Shown piece after piece: positions 12,541 to 36,910 of a stretch of 64,000 bases of DNA. Position 1 is the first letter of the stretch, and every line of letters begins with the position of its first letter. The stretch lies in contig NC_008610.1 of assembly GCF_000015105.1 (NCBI RefSeq), positions 372,001 through 436,000 of the forward strand, given 5' to 3'. This DNA is from Candidatus Ruthia magnifica str. Cm (Calyptogena magnifica) (GTDB lineage: Bacteria > Pseudomonadota > Gammaproteobacteria > PS1 > Pseudothioglobaceae). The notes beneath the pieces were generated by a model, which saw nothing but the letters and a program-made list of their open reading frames with translations, had not been told where the DNA came from and made no database searches. The position numbers were made by a program, and so were the translations under genes.

Positions 12541-13051
12541 AAGAGTTTTGAAGCTCTTTTTTGGCTTCAATAGAATCACTCCAGCCATCAATTTTTACCC
12601 ACTTGCCTTCTTCAAGGTCTTTGTAGTAAGTAAAGAAGTGTTCGATTTGATTTTTAAGGGTAACATCGACGTCGTCAATGCATTTGATATTATGATAAGA
12701 TTTGCATGATTTATCAATAGGTACGGCTAAAATTTTAGAATCCTTTCCTGCTTCATCAGTCATGCGTAAAATACCAATCGGGCGCACTGTAATAACGCTA
12801 TCATGGATTAGTGGGTAAGGAGTAATCACCAAGACATCGGCTGGATCGCCATCATCTGCCAGTGTTTCTGGCACAAAACCGTAGTTACAAGGATAGAACA
12901 TAGGTGTTAATATAAATCTATCTACAAACATTGCACCTGTTTCCTTGTCAATTTCATATTTAATGGGTGATGAATTTGCTGGAATTTCAATAATAACATT
13001 AATTTCATTAGGTACATTACCTGCTGAGACTGGTTTTAAACTATTTTGCAT
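12521..13051 (-). CDS. ppa: Inorganic pyrophosphatase (family I)
   Basis: This soluble enzyme hydrolyses pyrophosphate and pulls biosynthetic reactions forward. The 176-residue length matches bacterial family I. Diagnostic sequences are IEIPANSSPIKYE, YPCNYGFVPETLADDGDP and the metal-binding DGDPADVLV (D-x-D-P-x-x-D). YKDLEEGKWVKIDGW lies near the C-terminus. Its 3' end overlaps the 5' end of rsmD, suggesting a ppa-rsmD-coaD transcript on the minus strand. Upstream begins a long stretch of decayed DNA. Confidence 0.97.
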   Translation of the reverse strand: MQNSLKPVSAGNVPNEINVIIEIPANSSPIKYEIDKETGAMFVDRFILTPMFYPCNYGFVPETLADDGDPADVLVITPYPLIHDSVITVRPIGILRMTDEAGKDSKILAVPIDKSCKSYHNIKCIDDVDVTLKNQIEHFFTYYKDLEEGKWVKIDGWSDSIEAKKELQNSFDAYHQ

Positions 13052-13259
13052 TTTTCTGATTCCTTTTTAAAGATTAAAGCGAAACCTATTAAGAAAATAA
13101 CTGAGCACTCACCATGAGTAAAACTTAACGATTATTTACTATTGGCAATGGTTCTATCGTATAAATTATACTAATTTTCTATATTTTGTATCAGTTTTTG
13201 TTGTTAGTGTTGTGTATTAACAATAATTTTAGCTTCATTCAGCTATTCATTTCTAACTA

Positions 13260-14045
13260 AAAATTCATTAAATGTAATTTTATACCAAAAAATAATGGCT
13301 CTTTTTTGAGCGCATAGCTGATTAATTTATCGTCACTCATTATTCATTTTCTAAGTTTATTCTTATGAATAGTCTGATGTTCTCTAAACATGACTAATTG
13401 TACGGTACAATAATATGTTTTTTGGTTAAACATGAAAATCTTTTGACGTTTTCCATGCGTTTTTAACGTCAGGATCTTAAAGATTGATATTTAATAAAAA
13501 TTAACCTTCTTGTTTAATCCAGTATAACTCATGTTAAGTTTTTAATTGGTTTTCAAGTTGGTAGAATTTTTAAATAAATATCGTACATTATCTAACGTAT
13601 ACTCAAGCTCTTCATTTGGCAATGGACGTATGGTTCAATCTAGGTGGATATAAGTTTTTATAAATAGAAATTTTATAAGATTTGAGTCAGTGCTTGATAA
13701 GAAATTTGCATAGGTAAATTTATGCTGCAATTTTAGTGTCAAACAAACGTTTAGGGAGTTATTTGGACAAATAGTGCATGATCTTAATATCTTGACGTGC
13801 TGTGCACAATTCATAAGCAATCTTTTTGATAAAGCTTTTCAAATAGCGGGTTTAAATCTTCAATTGCTAAGATGTCGATATAATCAATTACACTTTTAAT
13901 GATTATTTGTACCAAGTATAGTATTGGATAGTAAGTATTAACACGTTTAAATTCAGTATCAATGGCTAGTTTGATTTCGTGTTTTTAAATTTAGAAACTG
14001 ACTTAGTTGTGCTTACATTTGAACCATTTGTCGTATTTTATATCG
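13260..14045 (-). pseudogene. rnd: Ribonuclease D remnant
   Basis: Minus-strand translations in shifting frames reproduce RNase D in order. First comes the exonuclease DEDD motif 1 region LAIDTEFKRVNTYYP (near 13970). Then come EDLNPLFEKLYQKD and IVHS..R (near 13840), then RPLPNEELEYTLDNVRYLF (near 13620). An HRDC-domain-like end with FREHQTIHKNKLRK and SDDKLISYALKKEP (near 13350) closes it. At least five stop codons and several frameshifts interrupt it. RNase D trims tRNA 3' ends and is dispensable in E. coli, so its loss is plausible. The boundaries are approximate. Confidence 0.82.
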
Positions 14046-14154
14046 ACAAAGCCACTCATTTACCAAATTATAAATTGATTTTTATGTGATTAATTTTAGA
14101 TTATAAATTTTTTTATTGCATTCAAAATACTATAAAGTACAAAAATTTTCCTGA

Positions 14155-14173
14155 TATCGAAAAGGCTTCGATA
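14155..14173. repeat. Short hairpin TATCGAA/TTCGATA
   Basis: Seven-base perfect inverted repeat with a five-base loop, in the intergenic stretch between the dead rnd and the dead sugar-binding-protein gene. It may be a relic terminator or operator. It is too short to interpret alone. Confidence 0.4.
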
Positions 14174-14270
14174 CAAATGAATATTATATTATAGTAATGT
14201 ATAAAAATTGTTAAAATTTGGAATGCACATACACATATTCGGACGAGTAAGCGGTTGATTTTACTAATCA

Positions 14271-14288
14271 GTATTTTTATAAAAATAC
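14271..14288. repeat. 18-base perfect palindrome ahead of the dead polyol locus
   Basis: GTATTTTTATAAAAATAC is a perfect palindrome. It is followed at once by GGAGGA, a ribosome binding site, and by the ATG at 14301 of the decayed sugar-binding protein. Position suggests a former operator or leader element, but an AT-rich palindrome can arise by chance. Confidence 0.4.
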
Positions 14289-14300
14289 GGAGGAAATAGT

Positions 14301-14541
14301 ATGAAATTAAGACATATTGTCATAATAGTTATAAGTGGGTATTTTTTGTTATCTACAGTAATAGTTTAGATACAAATAAATTTTGTTATTGCAATAGTTA
14401 ATAATGAACATATGGTTGAGATGCAAAAGTTAGGAAAATATTTTGAGGCGGATAATCCTAATATTAATCTTGAATGAGTAGCGTTAGAAGAGGACGTTCT
14501 GTGTCAACGTGTTATAACAGATATTACAATGCAAGGTAGTT
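14301..14541 (+). pseudogene. ABC transporter sugar/polyol-binding protein remnant (SmoE-like)
   Basis: A GGAGG site precedes an ATG that opens a signal-peptide-like start, interrupted by a TAG. Frame-adjusted translation then gives FVIAIVNNEHMVEMQKLGKY, then FEADNPNINLE, a TGA, VALEED and LCQRVITDITMQG. This is the N-terminal block of periplasmic binding proteins for mannitol/sorbitol (family pattern: a TVNN, MQKL, F-NP-I-L-WV-LEE, LRQR-TTDI series). The TGA at 14475 replaces the conserved Trp. Only about 80 codons are recognisable of about 440; the permease and ATPase genes normally following have vanished, apparently by deletion. Confidence 0.72.
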
Positions 14542-14544
14542 AAG

Positions 14545-14720
14545 AAAAAAACCTTATCTCCAAACAGTATGGTTGATCGAATTACACTACGATTAACAAA
14601 AGAAATTGAGAGGTGAGTGCTTGAAGCAACAGGTTGTGTTGATAAGACCTCGGCTATGAGCGAGATATTTATTCAATGGGCGGAGAAAGATGTTGTTCTT
14701 TTTTATGTGCGTACCTGAGG
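14545..14720 (+). pseudogene. Mannitol dehydrogenase family (MtlK/UxuB-like) remnant
   Basis: Translation gives SPNSMVDRITLRLTKEIER, a stop, then VLEATGCVDKTSAMSE and FIQWAEKDVVLF. The PNSMVDRIT block, followed by a segment resembling CEPFxQWVxED, is a signature of long-chain polyol dehydrogenases such as mannitol 2-dehydrogenase and fructuronate reductase. This is an internal fragment of about 60 codons from a protein of roughly 480. It sits directly after the polyol-binding-protein fragment, consistent with a mannitol-type operon collapsed by deletion. Confidence 0.68.
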
Positions 14721-14927
14721 ATTTTTCAATGGCAATTTTTATACTGGCTAGATATTTAAGTATTTTTTGTATTTTATTATTTTGTAGATTAGCAGGTGAT
14801 ATGCGTCTCGTAAAATCGTTGTGTCAAATTTATAAAAAAGTTAACAAGTTTTGTATAAATTCTTATTAACCAATTGATTAATGCCTTTTTTGGAAAATAT
14901 TTTGTTAATGTTTTGATGTATTAGCTA

Positions 14928-15701
14928 ATGTCTAAGAGAAAATTAGTACGTAACTCAAAGATGGAATATAAGTTTCAGCATAATCCTAATCTTGGTTATG
15001 AGCCGAAGGTTCTTTTGGTTATATGTGTTATTTAGAACATGGTGCGTCCAATCCTCTAATTCATTGACATTATCATGAAGAGTATGAGTTATATTACATC
15101 GATAACACTGTAACAAGGTATTGTGGATGACTATATTGGCCTTTTAAGCCAAGTAATTTGACCGATACTAGCACATATTTTTCGTCATACTGTTGATTTT
15201 TATAATAATTTTAAGAGGCTTTACCGTTATTAGAACGCGCCAAACATGATGTGGAGTTTTTGGTATTAGTAATTTTTTGCAAAAAAATTAACACGTATTC
15301 AGCATACAACAGTCTTGCAATGCTTTAGTGAGTGTTAGATTTATTGGCTATCAGGAATACAACTCGTTGCTAAATAAACAGTTGCAGAATTTTGATGATG
15401 ACGTAACATTGCACAAATCATCGAAATGGTGGGTTATATTATTGTTCATTATGCAGATGTATTCACGATATCAGAAGCTGCTGATCAATTTAGAATGAAC
15501 TAAAGTTATTTTTCTAGGTACTTTTAACGAACTGTATGACTAACCCTCTTACTAATGGAAACTGATTAATATAATTAGTGCTGTTTGTTATGATGTTAGT
15601 TTTAATAATGTGCTAATTTTAATCGCTATTTTTAAGAAATTAAGGGCATTATATCTAATGAATTTAGACGTCAAAGTGAAGATAAATATGGGTTTACTTA
15701 A
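14928..15701 (+). pseudogene. AraC-family transcriptional regulator remnant
   Basis: The ATG at 14928 begins MSKRKLVRNSKMEYKFQHNP. After frameshifts the cupin-type sensor block appears as LEHGASNPLIH, TGA, HYHEEYELYYID (normally a WHYHEEYEL motif, so TGG became TGA at 15065). The C-terminal double helix-turn-helix is clear: YIIVHYADVFTISEAADQF, RMN, then SYFSRYF and later FNNV, FKKLR and SNEFRRQSEDKYGFT ending at TAA. Many stops make it non-functional. AraC proteins of this subfamily usually control adjacent sugar or polyol operons, which fits the neighbours. Confidence 0.82.
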
Positions 15702-16082
15702 GTATATGGTGTGTGACGAGACTTTGTTTAATATGTTTGTTAAACAAGGTGAAGTCATTAGCAACATAAAGGGTGAGTTTCCTGTTAAACAGGTATTTAA
15801 AATGATTTTTAGGAGAGCGTTTGATGACAGTATTTGTTAAAGAGCTAGTGTTGACTGAATTTATCGGTGGTGTTATTAAAGTTAACGATGAAGGTTTAGA
15901 GGCTTTATATCCATAGAAAACACTTGAAATGATTATTGCACTATGATAGTAGTTGATTAATGCTGCGTATGTTGTTGCAATAATCTGTACAAAACTCGGT
16001 ATTAACTTTTCATTGGAAAGCAGAGATAATTGTATGTTTGCAACTTCCATAAGCTTAAAAAATAAATGTCTAATATAAAATT
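15702..16082 (+). other. Unassigned decayed segment between AraC and xylulokinase remnants
   Basis: Frame fragments look once-coding (for example MTVFVKELVLTEF followed by GVIKVNDEGLEALYP, and LINAAYVVAIICTKLG) but are broken by stops. A weak likeness to ThiG-type barrels was considered and not accepted. From its position it may be another gene of the former polyol locus. Confidence 0.3.
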
Positions 16083-16520
16083 ATGTACTTAGATTTAGAT
16101 TTAGGCATTTCCTGATTGAAAATAGTATTGATTAATATATAAAGGTAAATGATTGTTCAGAACAGGACCCAGATGATTGCTGGGAAGATTATGCGTCAGT
16201 TGTTAATCAACTTAAAGGCAAAAGGGTATCAATTAGAATGTATTAAATCAATGGGTACGGTGGACATATGATATGTATTAATGGATAGGTGTTAAGACCT
16301 TGTATTTTGTGGAATGATGAACGTAGCTTTTCAGAGTGTGAAATACTAACCAAAAAAGTGCACAATTGTTCACAATGTAGTGTTATTTGGTTACTGTATC
16401 AAAGTTACTTTGGGCTGTTAAAACGAAGTGTAATATTTCTTCAAGGGTTGATAAATTTTTTTACTAAAGGATTATTTAAACTATAGTTTTACGGGTTTAT
16501 TTTGTAGTGAGTAATTATCA
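16083..16520 (+). pseudogene. Xylulokinase (XylB-like) remnant
   Basis: The ATG at 16083 begins MYLDLDLGISG, the FGGY-kinase phosphate-binding start (normally MYLGIDLGTSG), and hits TGA. Further on, EQDPDDCWED, then VLRPCILWNDERSFSECEILTKKV, reproduce the xylulokinase WxEQxP and LRPAILWNDxRS blocks. SKLLWAVKTKCNISSRVDKF follows in another frame, matching the APKLLWV...DKVLLPKDYL region. The C-terminal half is unrecognisable. Xylulokinase follows arabitol or sorbitol dehydrogenation, so it completes the polyol theme. Confidence 0.78.
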
Positions 16521-17643
16521 TGCCAATTTAAAGCATACAATACATGCTTTTGCCTCACTGTCAGGCACTAGATACCTCTGTCTTTAAGCGTAGCAAATTC
16601 TCTATCATGGTTTGCAAATTTGGTATAAATAAAAGCGTTTTAATTATTACAAGAGTTAAAAAATAGCCATATAAAGAACGTCTATTTCTCTTTTACTATA
16701 TTTGTCTTGAGAGCGTACACCTCATAATAACCCTTTAGCAATAGAATTGTTTCTTGAAATAATGACCTTTGCAAAAGATTACAAATATTTTAGATGGTAA
16801 TTTGAGATTTTTTGATATTTTAAAAAAGTTTTCCTACCTCCCGCTGTTGTATTCATTCATAAAACTGACTTTAGTATGCAGTATATTACAAAAAATAGCG
16901 TCAAAAATATCAAGATTTGTATCAACAAACACGAATGCTTAATCATTAAAAGTAATGGACTAAATTTTCTTAAATTTATCGGTTATTATCAAGGAGTGTG
17001 TGTGATACGGTTTAATTTAATAAATATCAAAGTTTTTAATACTTTGTATATTTGTTTAAAGCAAACTTATGAGTTTATTTCAAGATTTTTAAACTATTTT
17101 TTAAAAGGACTGCAATGTTAATAACATTGCATTTACTCTTAACAAGATCGCTATAGTTTTGTTTTAAACTATAAGAAACTTTTAGCGTATTAGTTGTCAC
17201 TGATGATGTATTTTTTAACTTATCGCTTTCAAGAGAAAGTTTTACGCCCTTTATTTGGTATAATATTGTAAGTAATATTTGTTTGCTTTTTATTACCTAC
17301 TGCTGTATTTTCCTTATATCTCATATTTTTTAAAAAATTAGTTTTTGTTGAGTTAAAACTAACGATACTATACTATCTACAAAGTTTTGTATAAAAGTAA
17401 TATGATGTTGTCAACAGGCGATACTATCTTGCCATGGGTAGCACTAACATTTTAATAATCAATAATTCAATATAGATACAATAGGTGTTATGTTTTATTA
17501 AAAATAGTAAGTTCAAGATTTGAAAAATGATGTTTTATTTATCAAAGTATTTAAATAGTAGACTGAGTTATTTGAGCTATCTTTAATGAATAACTTGTGA
17601 AGATATTTATTTAAAAAAATTATGACTATCTGCATTGTTTTCT
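16521..17643. other. Long non-coding stretch upstream of ntrY
   Basis: About 1.1 kb of AT-rich sequence with no intact gene. The longest open stretch, 16876-17121, has no recognisable family and no ribosome binding site. In relatives the genes before ntrY are often rsmB and a DUF4390 gene. I looked for them and could not recognise either here. The promoter of ntrY presumably lies near 17500-17640 but I cannot define it. Confidence 0.5.
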
Positions 17644-31994: not shown

Positions 31995-33049
31995 CCAATA
32001 AGTTGTTTTCAAGTAGTGTTTTACTTACTTAATCAACACAAGGGGCGTTACATACCTCATAAACCTTAACGGGTTCCTAGTACCTACTTCTCATTTTCGT
32101 ATTTACTAATAAAAGATTATGACATTTGTTTAGCTTTTAAACTAATTAATCTTATTTGATTAATAATTTTTAACAATAGACGTTTGTGTTATATGGATTT
32201 AGTTTAACTAAATCCATATATGGTAGTAGGCTTTGTTGTGATGGATGCAGTTTCATCAACTACTTTGAAAAACGGCAAAGACTTTTACGATTATAATAAA
32301 AAATATAACTTAATGCTAAACCGCTAATACGTATGTCTATGAGTCGTTAAAATTTACCGTATTGAACAAAAATATCTGCAGCGTGATTTCAGCAACAAAG
32401 AGTTTCTTAGAATAGCAAAAGAACAATTTATTATTAATCAGCAAGAATAAAACATAATAACAATGATATAAAAAAATAGTAAGAATGAATAGAAAATTTA
32501 TCACATTAAAGTGTTTATTTATAATGTTCTTTTGTGTTTCAGTGTTGTTTTGGTTTGCCAATGTAATTACCGATGATAATAGAAGTAAAAATTGTGATAA
32601 TTTAAAAGTTAGTTTGCTAAAATCGAAAAATGATTTTTTAAGCTAAAAAAGTTATTTTCGTTGAAAAGAGAAAAATCGACAAATATTATGGTTAATGGTA
32701 GTAGAGAATTCGATTAATACGTTTTACGAAGTGGAAATAGATAAAGCAATATGAAAAAGTTAGGGTTTGCTTAGCTTACTATTTGAATGGTTGTGCTAAT
32801 AATAGTGGAATATTGTTAGACGGTGAGTTTCGAGTGCTAGACATATTTTATCGCTACAAACTTGTAAAGTTTGCGAGTGACTTTAGTTTATATTTTATTA
32901 TTGTAAATAGAAATTTTTTCTTTTTAGAAGCCTAAATCAAACAGTTCACCTTGCGGATAAGTGATATGGTTTATCGTTCAATAGTTAGTGTCAGTGTTGA
33001 AAATTTTAGTAGCAATTAAAGTATTTTTGTAGAGGTTTGTTAGAATTAA
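31995..33049. other. Decayed intergenic DNA after the RND transporter
   Basis: About 1 kb with no intact gene on either strand. Short once-coding-looking pieces exist (for example VVMDAVSSTTLKNGKDFYDYN near 32240, plus strand) but I cannot assign them. A 31-base palindrome lies at 32190-32220. Confidence 0.5.
32190..32220. repeat. 31-base near-perfect palindrome (15-base arms)
   Basis: TATATGGATTTAGTT and its exact complement AACTAAATCCATATA flank a single T. It lies about 200 bases after the RND transporter stop. It has no T-run tail, so it is not a clean terminator. It could be an extruding cruciform, an operator or a relic. Confidence 0.6.
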
Positions 33050-34761
33050 TGTGCCAAAGTGGTTATAGTGTCCAAGGTTGATCAAACTGACTATTATGAA
33101 AGCAAGAATGTACACGATGTCTATTATAAATCGCTTAAATAGAGCTCAATTCTTCATTTAATTGGTTATTAATACCTAAAAATGAAGCCTTGTATTTTGG
33201 TTAATTTGTTTAGCTTTATCAATACCCTATAAGTTATTACGTTGGTAAAAAGAATTGCACCATCAAAACTTTATTTTTGGTTTATGTTAAATATTTTTTG
33301 TTATTGCTTGCATTAAAACTATTCTATCAAAGCCATTTTTTATCATTGGTTTGGTCAAACACAAATAAATAAGCGTAGTCTTTATAATAGAATAGAGGTT
33401 CAAAGTTAATTGACACTCTGTAAAGCTAGTTATTTTTATTGATTTGCCTCAAATAAACTACGAATCATTAGCGCATTCGATGACAGTAATATCTTGTTAC
33501 CCGTAATAGGTCACTTTTTGTTTCTAATTTAATATAGCTTATTTAATAAGGTATCGATTGCTTTATCGTCTTTTGAATTGACATTATTGATATTTTTAAA
33601 GCGAATAACATGGCCCGATTCAAAATCGGTATTGTTTAAATTACGTTAACTTTTGTTGATTAAAAATAGTGTTTAGTTTATCAATTGATCAGATAAAAAA
33701 ATACGCTTTCTTCACCTTAAGAATCAGCATTAATGGTAGAGAAAAATCCACCATTGGTATCTTGCATTTCTGTCAATATGTAATTTAAGGTTTACTTGGA
33801 AATGTGTTTGTATAAAGTATTTCTTGTTAGTACATAGGCGTAAGCATAAACTAGTTAAAGTTGTGCTTGATTGTATAACATTTTTTCAAAGTGTGTTACA
33901 AATCAAATGTTATCTGTTGAATGCCGATGAAAACCACTATCAACAACATATAAACCGCCACTTACCATCATATCTAGTGTTTAATTTATTCGCACTAGGA
34001 TTTTATTTAGCAATAGCAATATAGATTCGTGTGGAAATTTTAGCGCTTATTCAAATACCCATTCAAGTTCATTAAAGTTCTCCAATATGGTTTTAATAGA
34101 TTTGACAACAATGCTATTATCAACAATTTGGTGGGATGTTGTTTTTGGTTGATTGAGCTTTTGATTAATTTTAATTTCTTATTTGTTTAACTCACTTGCT
34201 TCATTCTTCCATAAATTTTGTACTTGTATCAAGATGTTTAACAATTATTTTTTAGGAAAATAAGCCTCTGTAAAAAATGTTTTACTATTAGGGAGTAGAA
34301 TCGCATTGAGCGGCTAACCATAAGAGCGATTTAACAGTTGTGATACATTCATGTAGGTGTTATCAATATCAGAATGAATCTCATGATCCGCTTTAATAGT
34401 AACAAAATATTTGATTAAAAATGTTGCTATTTCAATATCATCAAAACTTTCCTTTTTCATTATGTGGCACCAATGAAATAGCGTAGCCAATAGAAATAAA
34501 AACAGGTTTATTTTTACGCTTTGCTTTGTCAAAAGCTTCATCTGAAAACTTATACTAATTAACAGGATTATGAATATGTTACAATGAATAAAGCTAGAAT
34601 GATATGATCAACAAATTTAGCATGACTTTTCTGATTGAGATGTTGTGTTCTAGGTATGTAATCTTTACCCTTATCACGATAAGTTATTCTAACTCATTCA
34701 TAAGGTGTGCCCATGTTGTTAGTATGGATATAAAAATCAAAGATATAAATATTCTAAACAT
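33050..34761 (-). pseudogene. YyaL/DUF255 thioredoxin-domain protein remnant
   Basis: Minus-strand pieces follow the family from end to end. A signal-peptide-like start MFRIFISLIFIS lies at 34761. YIPRTQHLNQKSHAKF comes next, then DEAFDKAKRKNKPVF and FHWCHIMKKESFDD (thioredoxin-like HWCH motif). These are followed by IKADHEIHSDIDNTYM, WPLNAIL, FHRHSTD, HFEKMLYNQAQL and NGGFFSTINADS. The conserved NPVNWY is read as NPVN-TAG-Y. Many stops and frameshifts run throughout. Intact members are about 600-680 residues and combine this domain with a glycosidase-like barrel; their function is poorly known. The 3' limit near 33050 is approximate. Confidence 0.85.
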
Positions 34762-35209
34762 ACTTTGATGTCAATTTTTTGCATCAATTGGTAATATGCA
34801 GGTTATTGTTCATTTTAATAATCAAAAATTATCAATCGAATTTAAATATAAAATTGACACAAGTCTTAATCAAGGTAAGATTCATTTAAGTATTTGATTT
34901 TGTTGTCTAAGACTTGCTTGATTTTTAAATTTTATTAAACAAAGTAATTATTATTCAACATGCTTCTCTTTATGTAGTTTGACGAGTTAACTTGTAATTA
35001 GGTTTGAAGACTATTTTTATAATTAGCGACAGTAATCTATCTCAATTATTATCCAAACAATTAGACATTGAATGTATAAAACTGTGTTATTTTTCTTGTC
35101 TCGTCCTTGTAGTATTGGCGATGCTAAAATTGGTTATTTTAGAGATAGTGCGAAGTTATGTTAATACTTTTTAAGGAGTTATAGATGGAATGATGCTTAC
35201 AAATATCAA
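34762..35209. other. Unassigned stretch between two diverging dead genes
   Basis: No intact gene. It separates the minus-strand YyaL remnant from the plus-strand metallopeptidase remnant and probably held their promoters and the 5' end of the latter. A fragment reading FLSRPCSIGDAKIGYFRD near 35100 looks once-coding but was not recognised. Confidence 0.4.
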
Positions 35210-36603
35210 TAAGATGAACATATTAAATTTTATCTAGGTCGTATATTACTAGGAGAAACGAAAGTAAAATGTATTTTGTATCCCATAGATATTGTTATAC
35301 GTACAGATTATGCCGTTAAAATTTCCCAAATATTGGATGTTGATGACAGTCTAGATAATGTCATTGATGTAAAAGAACAATTTGAAAATACATAAGGTAA
35401 AAAATTGTCTGCAAACGAATCTGTAATTCATATTCTATCTACTGCTGATACAGAGGTTTTAAAATTAAAATACAGACAAGTAGTGCCTATTTTTAGGCGT
35501 CTTGTTGTCAGCTATCTGTGAGTAGAAAATAGCATACACAAGGTTGTTGAAGATGATGAAAGCTTTATAAGATTCATTACATAAAGTAATGATAGTGGCG
35601 ATAACATTGACAATCAAATTGTTAGAAGAGCGGTGTTATTATCTTAATTATTTTATTATCAGTTCACGAGTGTTAGGTGATTTTAAAATAAACAAACAGT
35701 AAAAAAAGATGGCAAAATATATGAACATTTAGCAGTAAACTAAAATAGATAGTCGTTTCTATTTGAATAATATTAGTCGTTGTGACAATGGACTTACTAC
35801 AAACGTAAACAAACCTTAAAATCTATTGGAGCAAGAGAACTTAAACTTACTAGACATAGTGTCGAGTTGGCTGAGAGGTTAGAGTAATTAGGAGTTGATG
35901 CACATGCAAATTCTATTGTGGTTTATGATAATCAAGGCTCTCTTATTGATTATCTATATCCTCGTTTTAAAACATCAAACACTAGCTCAAGTTTTCTCAA
36001 TTTAATGCTCTTTATTTTGGTAATAGTATTTGTTATTACACATCTGATAAAGGATATGATAAAAGCTTATTTTCAATTGTTAATGTTGTTGTTCATGAGT
36101 GAGGATATGCCATTACTATCAGGACTTTAATTTAATATATTTGAGTGAATCAGGTGTATTAAATGAAGCCTTTTAGATTGCTTTGGGTTTTATTACTATA
36201 GAGCGTTTTACGAGAACAGATAATTGGCTTATTTGTTTCGTAGATAAACCTTAGAGATCAATGAATAACTCAGAAGATAAGTATCACATCAAGATTATTT
36301 TGATTATGAAATAACCAAAGATGATTCTGTTTATTAGCCAATGGCAGAAGAAAAGGTTTATTATCCAAATACTCACAAAATCGATAATTAGGTTTTAATA
36401 GATGTGACTAATGTACTACGCCAACGGATTATAATGACTTTTGTGGTGTTCATATCAATAACAACGTGGCAAATAAAATGTTTTATTTGTTATCTGTGGG
36501 TTTGGTTATGCATAATAGCGTTAATGTTACTGGTATTGAACGAATATACAAGAATAGATTAGATTGGTTTAGGAAAGCGGTTGGTGTAACTGATGACAAT
36601 TAA
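35210..36603 (+). pseudogene. Thermolysin-family (M4) metallopeptidase remnant
   Basis: A propeptide FTP-like block is visible near 35480 (LKYRQVVPIFRRLVVSYL, stop, VENSIHKV). The mature domain follows in three frames: FNALYFGNSICYYTSDKG, then FSIVNVVVHE, TGA, GYAI. The zinc motif HEWGHAI has thus lost its Trp to TGA and its second His to Tyr. NLIYLSESGVLNEAF and WLI...RSMNN then match the thermolysin glutamate-ligand and downstream blocks. FCGVHINNNVANKMFYLLS and NVTGIERIY match the active-site GGVHxNSGxxNKAxYLL block. The intact ancestor was probably a secreted protease. Confidence 0.8.
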
Positions 36604-36910
36604 TGATTTTTTTAAATGCTAAATGGATAATATCTTCAGTGGAAAGTGTTTTGTCATTGATAACAGGCAACATCGACATTTATTTGTGAGACAAAATAGC
36701 TAACGTTACTTTAGGAACAAAATCATTTACTCTAATTAGCTATCTAAATAAGGTTTTTCATCTTTGGAGATAAAGCCAGGTGTGTACATCTTCTTTAATT
36801 GATAAGTGAGTGTTAACGAGAATTATTTTTCGTTACCTATTGCATAAAAACTGGACATTTGGCATAGAATTTGGCACATTTTTTTTAAAAAATACCTGTG
36901 AATTTATCAA
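36604..36910. other. Gene-free stretch before leuD
   Basis: About 300 bases with no recognisable coding or RNA feature. The leuCD transcript reads towards this region from the right. I see no strong GC-rich terminator. Confidence 0.5.

Follow-up and report, generated by a model that had tools for sequence, protein, structure and literature searches.

Between two well-kept gene blocks on the chromosome of Candidatus Ruthia magnifica, which oxidises sulfur as a symbiont of Calyptogena magnifica (genome 1,160,782 bp; PMC3035367), lies an interval (13050-17640) whose longest reading frame measures 118 aa, whose G+C is lowered to 28-30%, and in which broken yet recognisable stretches become visible on translation. 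Which genes stood here, and what became of them? Coordinates refer to the window, the whole 64,000-nucleotide stretch of DNA analysed, which corresponds to bases 372001-436000 of the single 1,160,782-bp R. magnifica contig. An initial annotation had proposed a collapsed polyol utilisation locus in what it rightly suspected to be a chemosynthetic symbiont (PMC3035367). We conclude with high confidence that the interval holds a dead polyol operon of the type smoE-F-G-K/dalD (MtlK family)/araC/frk/xylB, which R. magnifica would share by common ancestry with a sister genome (G009), which decayed separately in each, and which was presumably acquired horizontally.

Remnants were called with a frameshift-aware protein-to-DNA aligner, using as references the proteins of 80 fetched bacterial loci that each carry a SmoE relative, many of them cut by contig ends. 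The alignment score given for a gene is the best obtained with 4-9 reference proteins, and Gumbel P values were derived from 100 dinucleotide-preserving shuffles of 13051-17640. Pfam searches of the raw fragments recognised araC and xylB and, weakly, the dehydrogenase; smoE and frk became recognisable only with the help of reference proteins or of the sister genome.

The locus occupies 14301-16761 on the plus strand, with remnants in the order smoE, dalD, araC, frk, xylB. The smoE remnant (14301-14543, +) comprises the opening ~80 codons of a gene for a polyol-binding protein, interrupted in the alignment by three in-frame stops and one frameshift; it scores 169 against a shuffle mean of 39 and maximum of 55 (Gumbel P 3e-20), represents the single SmoE match in the whole genome (E 2.3e-15), and has an intact nearest relative with a match to 4RYA, a sorbitol-binding structure (E 2e-168). 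The dalD remnant (14539-14691, +) covers profile positions ~186-238, including an SPNSMVDRIT motif, and contains one stop (score 120, P 7e-12, 100 shuffles). A C-terminal dalD tail (14767-14836, +; LAGDxRLxxSL) was recognised by DNA identity to G009, whose dalD 3' end and araC are matched at 79% over 14767-15159. The junction of the internal dalD deletion is occupied by a 54-bp filler (14706-14759, -) that repeats, in inverted orientation, chromosome segment 347645-347699, part of a conserved hypothetical gene of 93 aa (84% identity, E 3e-8). In the genome G006, the same hypothetical gene neighbours a rearrangement breakpoint at the site of the polyol locus, on its ntrY side.

The araC remnant (14936-15692, +) covers almost the full length of the gene but has internal deletions, six stops and ~12 frameshifts (score 438, P 5e-54, 100 shuffles); 126 of 246 aligned residues are identical to the regulator of the Thiothrix operon, and HTH_AraC matches the decayed fragment at E 4e-4, under its curated cut-off. 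The PfkB fructokinase gene frk (15785-16059, +) survives as an N-terminal fragment (15785-15864) and a fainter central one (15867-16059), both weak as protein (P 0.015 and 0.0004). At the DNA level, the N-terminal fragment matches G009 frk with 83% identity (E 4e-15), and the probable identity of the R. magnifica gene depends mainly on this DNA homology. Placement of 15900-16050 at the C-terminal end of frk was rejected, the alignment assigning this stretch to the central part. The FGGY xylulokinase gene xylB (16083-16761, +) extends from the start-codon region to an ERTPHNNP stretch, with six stops and 6-9 frameshifts (score 155, P 7e-18, 100 shuffles). FGGY_N is matched at E 1e-5 with 25.5 bits against a cut-off of 28.8, the XylB match in the whole R. 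magnifica genome falls at 16083-16761 only (E 1.5e-4), and no other xylulokinase was found across the genus genomes. SmoF, SmoG, SmoK and the short-chain dehydrogenase stayed at chance level in the interval (P 0.16-0.96, shuffle null).

The four remnants originally named, together with their strand and order, are borne out, with scores far above those of dinucleotide-shuffled controls. The locus begins at 14301 as proposed, but xylB carries its end from 16520 to 16761, in the ERTPHNNP stretch, and a fifth gene, the fructokinase between araC and xylB, had been missed. The expectation that SmoE, an MtlK-family dehydrogenase, AraC and XylB would be encoded together also held, as they co-occur in 29 of the 80 loci with a SmoE relative.

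The enzyme first described as a member of the mannitol-dehydrogenase family does belong to the MtlK family, and can be refined to the DalD type, D-arabinitol 4-dehydrogenase. The R. magnifica fragment matches NF043014 (DArabDhDalD) at E 6e-12 and no other family, and this profile finds one match only in the whole genome (E 1.1e-11); the G009 remnant reaches 337 bits, with the next family at 112 bits. DalD is therefore the best match for both copies among the dehydrogenase profiles, a set without a mannitol 2-dehydrogenase equivalog. The curated NF043014 cut-off of 600 bits applies to the whole protein and both symbiont copies are broken; their nearest intact relatives (L055, L049 and L120) score 704-756 bits, above that cut-off. 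A PF08125 search returned no match for the R. magnifica dehydrogenase because the fragment falls outside that domain, and a PF08125 match in G048 was dropped, as it sits within an unrelated gene cluster.

In Sinorhizobium meliloti, SmoEFGK imports both mannitol and D-arabitol, MtlK oxidises both, and Frk and XylB pass the oxidation products to central metabolism (PMC10433430). With both frk and xylB, the ancestral operon would fit a substrate range of mannitol plus D-arabitol. When intact, the SmoEFGK ABC transporter would have brought in polyols, the dehydrogenase would have turned D-arabitol into D-xylulose (and, as in relatives, mannitol into fructose), and XylB and Frk would have phosphorylated these products to xylulose-5-P and fructose-6-P, with the AraC protein as the likely regulator of the set. 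This past function is deduced from gene content, and the R. magnifica lineage probably descends from a bacterium equipped for sugar alcohols. The present-day R. magnifica locus cannot yield working proteins.

The unity of these scraps is established by the sister copy. The genus comparison covered 12 genomes (R. magnifica, G009 and ten others), all of which keep the flanking genes; the polyol locus is found in R. magnifica and G009 only, and no operon traces were detected between the flanks in the other ten. The G009 copy lies at the same chromosomal site, is less decayed, and reads smoE, smoF, dalD, araC, frk, after which come an open porin-like gene of 309 aa and ntrY. Its alignment scores are 1037 for SmoE (reference residues 128-438), 519 for SmoF (8-156), 852 for DalD (90-453), 431 for AraC (8-116) and 459 for Frk (27-186); xylB, smoG and smoK are undetectable there. 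The R. magnifica remnants were therefore one locus, with smoF between smoE and dalD and the fructokinase after araC. The intact Thiothrix operon (L055) has ~4.5 kb between smoE codon ~80 and dalD codon ~186-200, two points that are directly joined in R. magnifica. A deletion of about that size thus brought smoE and dalD together, and stops and frameshifts occur throughout the remainder. Because G009 retains smoF between the same two genes at the same site, R. magnifica lost this permease gene by deletion. The earlier suggestion that deletions removed the permeases and ATPase thus stands for smoF; smoG and smoK would have been present as well, judging from canonical gene order only.

Further decay is visible around the operon. 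An rnd gene for an RNase D-like 3'-5' exonuclease (13039-14027, -) persists over its full length in R. magnifica as a pseudogene, with 13 stops and 10 frameshifts, and its syntenic G009 counterpart is open (347 aa). A 49-codon scrap of a porin-like C terminus (17168-17315, -) adjoins ntrY in R. magnifica; the porin-like gene is open in G009 (309 aa) and in G007 (about 302 aa). A further long region with low G+C (28%), at 32000-36900, is without reading frames of 100 aa, is partly alignable to G009 at 78-82%, and is perhaps another pseudogene stretch.

The lesions found in the stretches common to both copies are private to each genome: none of the disabling lesions is common to R. magnifica and G009 in roughly 600 bp. 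Where araC is common to both, R. magnifica carries four deletions of one base each, some larger ones and a TGG to TGA change (Trp to stop) that G009 does not have, and in the common part of dalD the stops differ between the two genomes. The 5' part of G009 araC is an open frame, and the frk part is likewise undamaged. Differences between the copies are spread across all codon positions, with a slight third-position excess in araC only (P 0.04), and identity is 79-84% in the operon remnants against 90-93% in the intact flanks, indicating that both copies have mostly drifted, each separately. The ancestor common to R. magnifica and the G009 symbiont would have carried the operon at this site, with decay proceeding separately after their split.

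What the operon did before its decay can be read in more than one way. One far-reaching reading, of less than even probability, is that the symbiont ancestor of the Ruthia lineage was a mixotroph and not an obligate autotroph, had gained the whole arabitol/mannitol operon by horizontal transfer and used it to channel polyols into the Calvin/pentose-phosphate pool, with separate losses in several clam lineages once symbiosis was established. It is unlikely that the operon reached the symbiont by horizontal transfer already useless, decayed at once and never served polyol use in symbiosis; differences of about 20% over all codon positions do resemble free drift since the split, but the lack of any common disabling lesion over roughly 600 bp and the undamaged araC 5' and frk parts of G009 argue against it.

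Regarding the origin of the operon, a DalD-type enzyme above the cut-off occurs in none of the 83 Thioglobaceae genomes searched and in four of the 369 sampled genomes of the class. In quick maximum-likelihood trees, the araC remnants fall beside Thiothrix and Cocleimonas (SH-aLRT 97), and for the dalD remnant this group also includes Marinobacterium (SH-aLRT 99). Together, these trees and the scarcity of DalD-type enzymes in family and class favour transfer into the symbiont lineage, likely from a Thiothrix/Cocleimonas-like gammaproteobacterium, a reading tempered by long branches, mosaic genomes and possible multiple losses. Old vertical inheritance within the Thioglobaceae, as for the family's mannitol-type operons, with loss elsewhere in the genus, appears unlikely. 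A few other family members do carry related operons (smoE-F-G-araC-mtlK-smoK-frk), but these place araC before mtlK and smoK after it, their dehydrogenases fall under the DalD cut-off (371-409 of 600 bits), and both trees set the mannitol-type operons of G017 and G034 apart from the remnants, beside alphaproteobacterial operons. Chance similarity in AT-rich decayed DNA has a negligible probability, for although some fragments, frk among them, are weak when taken singly, it is refuted by the shuffle controls, the genome-unique matches, the operon order and the syntenic G009 copy.

Against the preferred reading of a horizontally acquired, separately decayed operon stand the traceless smoG and smoK in both genomes, the weakness of the R. 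magnifica frk piece as protein, and the quick trees with their long query branches. Furthermore, the placement of G009 conflicts between trees, as two short flank pieces join it to G006 and a 5.6-kb tree to G011. A sliding comparison (G009 L172/L175, G006 L173/L176, G011 L174/L177) found that its flanks resemble G006 over most of their length and G011 in tracts at window-equivalent 20.1-23.4 kb and 25.5-27 kb, which suggests homologous recombination between symbiont lineages. Because G009 is a mosaic of this kind, the timing of operon gain and loss is blurred.

The last common symbiotic ancestor has been predicted to be an obligate autotroph without organic-carbon transporters (PMC2642828). 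The decayed operon qualifies this prediction (PMC2642828), since two genus genomes with a dead operon for polyol import and oxidation show that at least one branch formerly had such a transporter; the autotrophy of the living symbionts stays standing. The dead operon also provides a syntenic marker for tracing the loss of heterotrophic traits. Our literature search found no report pairing arabitol with Ruthia or xylulokinase with vesicomyids, although mentions elsewhere are possible.

The operon type itself is well known, and what seems to be new is its ruin in the Ruthia lineage. The smo locus of S. meliloti (smoEFGK, smoS, mtlK, frk, xylB), with a polyol range of D-arabitol, sorbitol and mannitol, resembles it in transporter family, dehydrogenase superfamily and kinases (PMC10433430). 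That locus, however, is intact, functional and SmoC-regulated, with no AraC gene noted, whereas R. magnifica retains fragments and a dehydrogenase of the DalD branch. Within the Thioglobaceae, the mannitol-type operons of G017 and G034 encode SmoE proteins that share 66% and 59% identity, respectively, with the remnant in G009 and also contain AraC, MtlK and frk, but differ in gene order, have a non-DalD-type dehydrogenase and form a separate clade. Closer counterparts are the smoE-F-G-K-dalD-(SDR)-araC-(xylB) operons of a Thiothrix MAG (L055), Cocleimonas flava (L049), Marinobacterium (L058) and many Betaproteobacteria, which agree with the symbiont in genes and in the order smoE ... dalD ... 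araC. They differ in the position of the kinases: frk lies downstream of araC in the symbiont but upstream in Cocleimonas, and the symbiont order of frk then xylB is reversed in several Betaproteobacteria. Among them, SmoE and AraC match best to the Thiothrix operon, whose DalD is also the nearest in the tree.
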